A stretch of DNA of 54,150 nucleotides from a virus: positions 1-54,150 of IMG/VR virus record IMGVR_UViG_3300035698_024250. One strand, given 5' to 3'. This document shows, in pieces, positions 10,039-10,638 of this stretch. Made by a program: the position numbers and the translations under genes. The notes under the pieces are model-generated. The model had not been told where the DNA came from, did not search any database, and saw only the letters and a program-made list of their open reading frames with translations. Each line of letters starts with the position of its first letter. The first letter of the stretch is position 1.

Positions 10039-10186
10039 ATAAAACAGGCCGAATGCCAGAAGGTTAACGTCACCTTGAGACCGTAGAGGAGGTTCGATCC
10101 CTTCCCCAGCAATTCAGTATAACCCTGCTGGGTAGTGTAATGGTAGCACGCGTAAAATGCCTTCAGCAACTCCTTGTCTGTTTTAT
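10039..10186 (+). ncRNA. Y-RNA-like RNA 2 with circularly permuted tRNA-like module
   Basis: The outer helix is a perfect 9-bp pairing of ATAAAACAG (10039-10047) with CTGTTTTAT (10178-10186). It is followed by the Ro-type strands GCCGAAT and CTTGT and an inner helix (GAAGG 10059-10063 with CCTTC 10160-10164). Inside, tRNA parts occur in permuted order: a T-arm (GGAGG-TTCGATC-CCTTC, about 10088-10104), an acceptor 3' strand CCCAGCA (10105-10111), a 14-base loop, an acceptor 5' strand TGCTGGG (10126-10132, perfect 7 bp) and a D-arm-like TAGTGTAATGGTAGCAC (10133-10149). The Y stem therefore takes the place of the anticodon arm, as in bacterial YrlA RNAs. Confidence 0.8.
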
Positions 10187-10192
10187 CTATAT

Positions 10193-10339
10193 GGAACAAG
10201 TGGGCCGAATGGTAAGAGGGTTATCTCCATTTAAGAGAGAGGTCGCTGGTTCGAGTCCAGTCGGAGCCCCATTGGGTGCCCCGTAGCTCAGTTGGTAGAG
10301 CGCTAAACTCCCTCCACCAACCCCTTGTCCACAAGTTCC
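10193..10339 (+). ncRNA. Y-RNA-like RNA 3 with circularly permuted tRNA-like module
   Basis: The outer helix is GGAAC-AA-GTGG (10193-10203) with CCAC-AA-GTTCC (10329-10339), two helices around a symmetric AA/AA internal loop. Next come GCCGAAT and CTTGT, then inner pairs GGT/ACC and GAGGG/CTCCC. The 5' strand GCCGAATGGTAAGAGGGTTA strongly resembles the human Y RNA 5' strand. Inside are a T-arm (CTGG-TTCGAGT-CCAG, 10246-10260), an acceptor-like helix (CGGAGCCCC 10262-10270 with GGGTGCCCCG 10274-10283, two mismatches, 3-base loop) and a consensus D-arm, TAGCTCAGTTGGTAGAGCG (10284-10302). Confidence 0.8.
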
Positions 10340-10343
10340 ACCA

Positions 10344-10462
10344 TCGGTGCTGTAGCTCACTGGCAGAGCGTCTGATCGACGGGCACGACTATGTAACCAT
10401 AGGAACCGAGCCTACCCCCGCGGTCGATTAGAAGGTAGGAGGTCCGATTCCCCCCGCGCCGA
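10344..10462 (+). ncRNA. tRNA-like RNA with very long anticodon arm
   Basis: TCGGTGC (10344-10350) pairs with GCGCCGA (10456-10462) as an acceptor-like stem, followed by a consensus D-arm (GCTC-ACTGGCA-GAGC). Where an anticodon arm should be, TCTGATCGAC (10371-10380) pairs over 10 bp (one G-T) with GTCGATTAGA. This encloses about 40 bases that hold a CTATG/CATAG hairpin. A T-arm-like GGAGG-TCCGATT-CCCCC follows, with an imperfect stem and a T-loop lacking the usual second T. Element order is that of a normal tRNA, unlike its neighbours. A degenerate or intron-bearing tRNA, or another tRNA mimic, are all possible. Confidence 0.5.
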
Positions 10463-10464
10463 CT

Positions 10465-10638
10465 AGAAGAACCTGGCCGAATGTTGAAGCTTAACTACTT
10501 GGTTCGAATCCAATCCTGCCCACTCTTGTAGCACGATATGGGCAGGATGACTGACTGGGATTAAATCTCAGTTAGTCTGACTAGGGAAACTTGGTCAACG
10601 GAAAATAGCTTCAACTCTTAAGCTTGTCAGGAACTTCT
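10465..10638 (+). ncRNA. Y-RNA-like RNA 4 with permuted T-arm/acceptor and two extra hairpins
   Basis: The outer helix is AGAAG-AA-CCTG (10465-10475) with CAGG-AA-CTTCT (10628-10638), the same AA/AA internal loop as RNA 3 with entirely different paired bases. Then come GGCCGAAT and CTTGT and a perfect 8-bp inner helix, GTTGAAGC (10483-10490) with GCTTCAAC (10608-10615). The module has a T-arm (TTGG-TTCGAAT-CCAA) and a perfect 8-bp acceptor-like helix CCTGCCCA (10515-10522) / TGGGCAGG (10539-10546). The D-arm is replaced by a 13-bp hairpin (10549-10577) and a hairpin with a GAAA tetraloop (10578-10597). Confidence 0.8.

Follow-up and report, generated by a model that had tools for sequence, protein, structure and literature searches.

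Permuted Y RNAs in a phage rsr array and an apparent un-permuted counterpart in viruses and bacteria point to two interchangeable orders

Ro60 and Y RNAs are widespread, and the tRNA-like part of the latter has no agreed partner. In a virus record of 54,150 bases, analysed over its full length and hereafter called the window, five RNAs with Y-stem motifs (RNAs 1–5) were found upstream of an rsr gene on the same strand (Table 1). The question raised by this locus is in which order the tRNA-like parts of RNAs 2, 3 and 4 are joined to the Y stem, and what could read such a part. Two features of a bacterial Y RNA are present: a Y stem whose motifs CGAA..GGTTA and CTTGTC close an outer helix, and an adjoining rsr gene. 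RNAs 1 and 5 consist of the Y stem and motif only and presumably resemble the module-less Y RNA of the Deinococcus type, from which they differ in their distal sequence and in being set in a phage array.

Table 1 Features of the Y RNA array and the rsr gene, with positions in the window.
Feature	Position	Strand	Evidence
Y RNA 1, without tRNA module	9946..10015	+	outer stem GCAGGC/GTCTGC; motifs CGAAT..GGTTA and AACTTGTC
Y RNA 2, permuted tRNA module	10039..10186	+	model R1 65.9 bits, E 8e-14; RF02553 27.4 bits, below cut-off
RNA 2 T-arm	10088..10104	+	5-bp stem, loop TTCGATC
RNA 2 closed acceptor stem CCCAGCA/TGCTGGG	10105..10132	+	7/7 pairs
RNA 2 D-arm GTGT-AATGGTA-GCAC	10135..10149	+	sequence; aligned to R1 D-arm; absent from MFE fold
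Y RNA 3, permuted tRNA module, AA/AA outer stem	10193..10339	+	R1 100.1 bits, E 8e-22; RF02553 42.6 bits
RNA 3 T-arm	10245..10261	+	5-bp stem, loop TTCGAGT
RNA 3 closed acceptor stem, imperfect	10262..10283 (10262-10270 with 10274-10283)	+	5/7 ungapped; bulged in MFE fold
RNA 3 D-arm GCTC..GAGC	10286..10301	+	MFE fold and R1 model
tRNA-like RNA, normal order, remodelled long-stem anticodon arm, no Y motif found	10344..10462	+	RF00005 24.3 bits, below cut-off; 7-bp acceptor, D-arm, T-arm in MFE fold
Y RNA 4, T-arm and closed acceptor, without D-arm, AA/AA outer stem	10465..10638	+	fold z -6.8; acceptor 10/10; R1 matches T-arm only
RNA 4 T-arm	10498-10513	+	pairing in sequence
RNA 4 13-bp hairpin at D-arm place	10549..10577	+	MFE fold
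RNA 4 8-bp GAAA tetraloop hairpin	10578..10597	+	MFE fold; tetraloop hairpins at like position in other loci
Y RNA 5, without tRNA module	10657..10740	+	full match to the exact bipartite Y pattern (0.00 expected by chance)
rsr gene (Ro60 family: TROVE and Ro60 vWA domains)	10864..12516	+	Pfam PF05731 8e-32, PF25045 4e-65

The first-pass annotation read RNAs 2, 3 and 4 as tRNAs in permuted order (T-arm, closed acceptor, D-arm; in RNA 4 with two hairpins for the D-arm) and with the Y stem at the anticodon position. For RNAs 2 and 3 this is borne out by base pairing and by a covariance model, and covariation across 17 further viral members agrees with it. RNA 4 departs from the full order: it has no D-arm, and the permuted model does not find it as a whole. 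That model (R1) was built from 17 viral YrlA-like RNAs, none of them from the window, and it recognised RNAs 2 and 3. The permuted layout is the known architecture of YrlA and was not first seen in this window: the accessible text of a 2024 paper superposes the bacterial Y RNA 6CU1 on tRNA with a circular permutation (PMC11472068), and a 2021 review, in the portion available, describes YrlA as mimicking the T, D and acceptor parts of tRNA and as being modified by DusA and TruB (PMC8394870). RNAs 2 and 3 share with YrlA (RF02553; Salmonella structure 6CU1) the Rsr-type Y stem, the three tRNA parts in the same permuted order and the position beside rsr, and are almost certainly phage YrlA-type Y RNAs. 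They differ from it in scoring below the Rfam cut-off (RNA 3, E 8e-8; RNA 2, E 0.002; no match for RNA 4), in that several such RNAs occur per phage array, and in the company of RNA 4 without a D-arm. None of the three reaches the RF02553 gathering score of 69 bits, which places them outside the Rfam family as it stands. RNA 4, with no D-arm after the closed acceptor, was not filed as YrlA; it is not a full permuted tRNA and keeps only the top half, i.e., the T-arm stacked on the acceptor stem.

As first annotated, two of the three acceptor stems are perfect (RNAs 2 and 4), and that of RNA 3 gains pairs once a bulge is allowed. A T-arm followed directly by a 7/7 acceptor hairpin occurs twice in the window, compared with three times in total among 200 dinucleotide shuffles and never twice in one. 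The acceptor strands of RNAs 2, 3 and 4 form 7, 5 and 7 of 7 pairs within their own RNA and at most 5/7 between RNAs, indicating that the permuted register is correct. Energy-based folding gave a mixed picture, since the T-arm and acceptor of RNA 2 appear in its MFE fold and its D-arm does not. Compared with shuffles, RNA 4 folds far more stably (0/200 as low), RNA 2 less markedly so (z -2.3), and the folding of RNA 3 is unexceptional (z -0.9), so that energy alone is weaker support than the model. A symmetric AA/AA internal loop is indeed common to RNAs 3 and 4 in their outer stems. The accompanying statement that all flanking pairs had changed was too strong, as 5/11 pairs differ on both sides and 6/11 are identical. 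The replacement of the RNA 4 D-arm by a 13-bp hairpin and a GAAA hairpin was recovered in the MFE fold.

Between Y RNAs 3 and 4 lies a further tRNA-like RNA (10344-10462), which was rejected as a Y RNA for want of a Y motif. It also falls short of a tRNA, with a score below the RF00005 cut-off of 29 bits, a long stem instead of an anticodon loop and no ARAGORN call, and it may form a pseudoknot (CCTACC/GGTAGG). A search of 9700-10900 against Rfam at E up to 1 gave no credible ribozyme or further Rfam family.

We then asked how far these forms extend among viruses. Rsr relatives occur in 352 of 50,697 phage records, and brief mentions of phage Y RNAs or Ro-like proteins occur in the accessible parts of PMC12282133, PMC7765460 and PMC7824862. 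The window's own Rsr found no relatives as a query against viral contigs; a query with an Rsr protein alignment did. Four such alignment searches of viral contigs, together with named phages, gave 284 loci, of which 137 were distinct after removal of loci sharing exact probes, a set that may still hold near-identical contigs. Two of the loci (L012 and L013) were taken in by DNA match, and the stretch of L013 shows no rsr gene. Most actinophage RNAs escaped the initial Y-stem patterns; the widened ones gave 69 forward, 2 reverse and 16 shuffled matches, and a scan for the permuted module gave 72, 5 and 11, respectively.

At ≥50 bits, R1 had 81 matches in 62 of the 137 loci. Six of these are cross-register matches lying over an un-permuted RNA; without them the tally is 75 permuted RNAs in 56 loci, a count that includes the 17 training RNAs. 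RNAalifold on the 17-member alignment recovered the inner Y stem, T-stem, acceptor and D-stem. In this alignment 95.0% of the cells are paired, with 85 two-sided changes compared with a shuffled mean of 26, and sliding it by one column lowers the pairing to 31–53%; part of this pairing arises by construction, because the members were chosen by a scan that required several of these stems. The matches of R1 to RNAs 2 and 3 of the window are not by construction. Phage tRNA arrays often adjoin rsr, the acceptor of RNA 3 is imperfect and the D-arm of RNA 4 is lost, all of which would suit modules that are decaying phage tRNA genes or functionless pseudogenes. Against this, many viral loci combine the permuted order with covarying stems and a Y motif that is intact, and we consider decay very unlikely.

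Among 12 loci of named Mycobacterium, Gordonia, Streptomyces and Microbacterium phages with Ro-like proteins, all but one (L011) had a YrlA-like RF02553 match near Rsr, always below the cut-off. These loci are diverged in sequence from the window, and in none was a D-arm-less form like RNA 4 found. In Microbacterium phage Big4, a 'tRNA-Ser(cga)' (L012:5002-5069) overlaps a YrlA-like RNA (R1 102.9 bits; a member of the R1 training set) and is probably misannotated. Mycobacterium phage Phabba carries an unannotated permuted Y RNA inside its tRNA array (L013:2981-3114), and phages Farewell and LinStu, which pair with Mycobacterium smegmatis mc2 155 as laboratory host, have an RNA of the permuted type. 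In Gordonia phage GMA2 the tRNA array contains a Pistol ribozyme match of 56.8 bits (L006:5455-5511). The nearest Rsr relative of the window in the set (L136, 54% identity) is accompanied by three or more Y RNAs and by two genes of tRNA or tRNA-like type, and reading of its sequence revealed no permuted module. Two loci show a third arrangement, in which a normal-order tRNA-like module sits inside an ordinary Y RNA and its acceptor end continues into the Y stem (L030:5973-6113 and L077:1928-2069).

RNA 4 itself had no blastn match in the phage records at E up to 1. Relatives in form were sorted by eye, as 21 of the 72 permuted-module scan matches came without a D-arm call, many of them with a D-arm that the scan had missed. 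Four RNAs have only a T-arm and an acceptor before the Y 3' strand (L279:3835-3934, L241:3561-3666, L234:3577-3682 and L258:3686-3796). At the D-arm place, L226 from 3693 onward has a GCGA hairpin (read as L059; the scan called a D-arm there) and L172:2930-3065 has another hairpin. Between the D-arm and the Y 3' strand, small hairpins closed by a GNRA or UUCG loop recur in nine loci (L062, L071, L169, L172, L173, L203, L215, L234 and L241). These observations suggest that the D-arm is dispensable and that the GAAA hairpin is a recurrent option, and the modules of T-arm and acceptor alone indicate that the elbow half is the common part.

The un-permuted counterpart would be a tRNA-like RNA whose two termini pair in a 7-bp acceptor stem and whose anticodon arm is a closed Y stem. 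A scan for this normal order (acceptor, D-arm, closed Y stem, T-arm) gave 47 forward, 2 reverse and 5 shuffled matches, some of the forward ones being cross-register readings of neighbouring RNAs. Acceptor pairing was 7/7 in 20 of the 47; these were kept along with L094 (6/7), and 15 of the resulting 21 entered alignment A5. A covariance model (R2) from 15 un-permuted viral RNAs had 39 matches of at least 60 bits in the 137 viral loci, all on the rsr strand, with an acceptor of at least 6/7 in 38 and of 7/7 in 34. Normal tRNAs also reach about 20–47 bits with R2 and were left out, as were L074:3169 (acceptor 5/7) and all matches below 60 bits except five short RNAs of 96–98 nt. With the latter included, un-permuted RNAs total 43 in 32 viral loci, and 54 of the 137 loci hold neither form at the thresholds used. 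In many of the placeable un-permuted viral RNAs a loop of 2–5 nt caps the Y stem; the others have a long loop or no closing stem by script. A form with its own-end acceptor and a closed Y stem fits the view that the Y stem corresponds to the anticodon arm.

The un-permuted form was also detected in bacteria. In 80 cellular rsr loci, R2, with no cellular RNA among its training sequences, had 38 matches in 28 loci, the acceptor reaching at least 6/7 in 37; examples are from Sorangium cellulosum So0157-2 and So ce26, Polyangium and Candidatus Brocadia. For 20 of the 38, an alignment made by MAFFT only had 99.3% of cells paired and 67 two-sided changes compared with 14.7 when shuffled, falling to 32–46% paired when slid; the pairing is partly by construction, because R2, which found these RNAs, rewards the pairs. 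R2 matches at E up to 1e-9 were present in six of eight whole genomes, the best ones in rsr loci, and four whole genomes had further matches of 60–65 bits outside rsr loci. In four loci from Polyangium and Sorangium (L299, L300, L332 and L341), rsr and an un-permuted Y RNA lie within a tRNA array.

Rfam, run on seven loci, scored six un-permuted RNAs as tRNA at 43–51 bits (cut-off 29) with a large insertion, and the RNA of L341, the second of L054 and one of the two of L322 were without a tRNA match; ARAGORN reported none of the un-permuted RNAs. Blastn against the phage records matched only pieces covering 16–32% of an un-permuted RNA, mostly under annotated tRNAs. No published description was found in a literature screen by titles and listings, with subscription journals mostly beyond its reach, and the un-permuted counterpart seems undescribed so far.

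The two forms occur together in five viral loci (L062, L182, L232, L234 and L241) and two cellular ones (L286 and L306). On a FastTree phylogeny of 211 Rsr proteins, with 72 permuted and 53 un-permuted labels, 17 changes between forms were needed compared with a shuffled mean of 40, and the well-supported branches alone force five. Where half-units alternate in tandem, both registers are open to reading, as a search of the window with R2 shows: it gave one strong cross-register match (62 bits at 10126-10268, spanning RNAs 2 and 3), along with two normal tRNAs and two weak cross-register matches. Taken at face value, the strong match would join the back half of RNA 2 to the front half of RNA 3 in a single un-permuted tRNA-like RNA whose anticodon arm is the Y stem, a form that appears real elsewhere. 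Its acceptor is broken, however, with only 4/7 pairs compared with 7/7 inside RNA 2, and the outer stems too pair within each RNA, making this alternative extremely improbable for the window. In the permuted register, RNAs 2 and 3 recall the permuted tRNA genes of algae and archaea in the swapped order of the tRNA halves. Those genes are processed to normal tRNAs, whereas the RNA in the window is itself permuted and has no anticodon. Tandem duplication has been proposed as the origin of permuted tRNA genes (PMC3978253, in the part accessible), and by analogy we infer that this route may extend to Y RNAs. We therefore propose, with a probability of roughly 0.7, that the YrlA permutation is one of two interchangeable states. 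A second class of Y RNA in viruses and bacteria would be a linear tRNA-like RNA that has a 7-bp acceptor, a D-arm, a T-arm and, for its anticodon arm, an Rsr-type Y stem closed by a hairpin; tandem arrays of alternating half-units would provide the route of interconversion, and RNA 4 would show that the acceptor/T-arm half suffices.

For the window, the likely reading is an array of five phage Y RNAs beside rsr, with RNAs 2 and 3 of the YrlA type and RNA 4 a half-module, in which the tRNA-like part would recruit a partner to Rsr as an interchangeable adaptor. The stems, motifs, rsr linkage, covariation in relatives and apparent un-permuted counterpart on which this reading builds come from sequence comparison; expression of the RNAs, their binding by Rsr, the partner and the role are what we infer from them. 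The Y stem would carry the Rsr-binding motif and continue as the anticodon-side stem of a tRNA mimic with a loop-closed acceptor. Rsr would hold the Y stem, and the tRNA-like part would recruit a partner that reads the T-arm/acceptor elbow with no need for a CCA end or an anticodon. Candidate partners are nucleases, PNPase among them, and tRNA-binding enzymes, and one Rsr could thus be fitted with several interchangeable adaptors during infection. PNPase, tethered, is the published partner of a bacterial Y RNA in the available portions of PMC8394870 and PMC7790460.

Taken by itself, the adaptor role is the most likely function of the tRNA-like modules, at about even odds in our judgement. In its main rival, the same RNAs act as decoys for a host defence protein that cuts or binds tRNA, titrating it, and Rsr stabilises them. 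Several anticodon-less tRNA-like RNAs in one array would suit such a role, and the accessible text of PMC7790460 suggests YrlA as a competitive inhibitor against an anticodon nuclease; neither topology, however, has an anticodon loop to hold such an enzyme, and we regard the decoy role as rather doubtful. For an adaptor, what the three forms have in common is the Y stem and the T-arm/acceptor stack; the free 3' end, the anticodon and the D-arm are not common to them, so a common partner must read the elbow half. If one family does include both circular orders and a D-arm-less form, the partner reads the T-arm/acceptor elbow and not the CCA end, anticodon or D-arm, narrowing the search for it. 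The arrays would also, if the proposal holds, present natural circular permutants of an RNA side by side in tandem, an arrangement long proposed as the intermediate of permuted tRNA genes.

Elsewhere in the window, two further Y stems were found in closed order (3' half, hairpin, 5' half) at 32513-32583 and 32676-32733, the second folding at z -4.4; no enclosing tRNA was found for either. Both lie near a tRNA with a CUA anticodon (32369-32445), which ARAGORN called tRNA-Pyl. Recoding of TAG by this tRNA was considered and there was no sign of it, with 11 of 39 hand-listed ORFs terminating in TAG. The window also encodes an NAD-related phage set, with NADAR (14603-15037), NAD synthase (35553-36377) and NAPRTase (36390-37601) domains, and, at 16286-18562, a protein that has intein-splicing and LAGLIDADG domains and weakly matches a glycosyltransferase.
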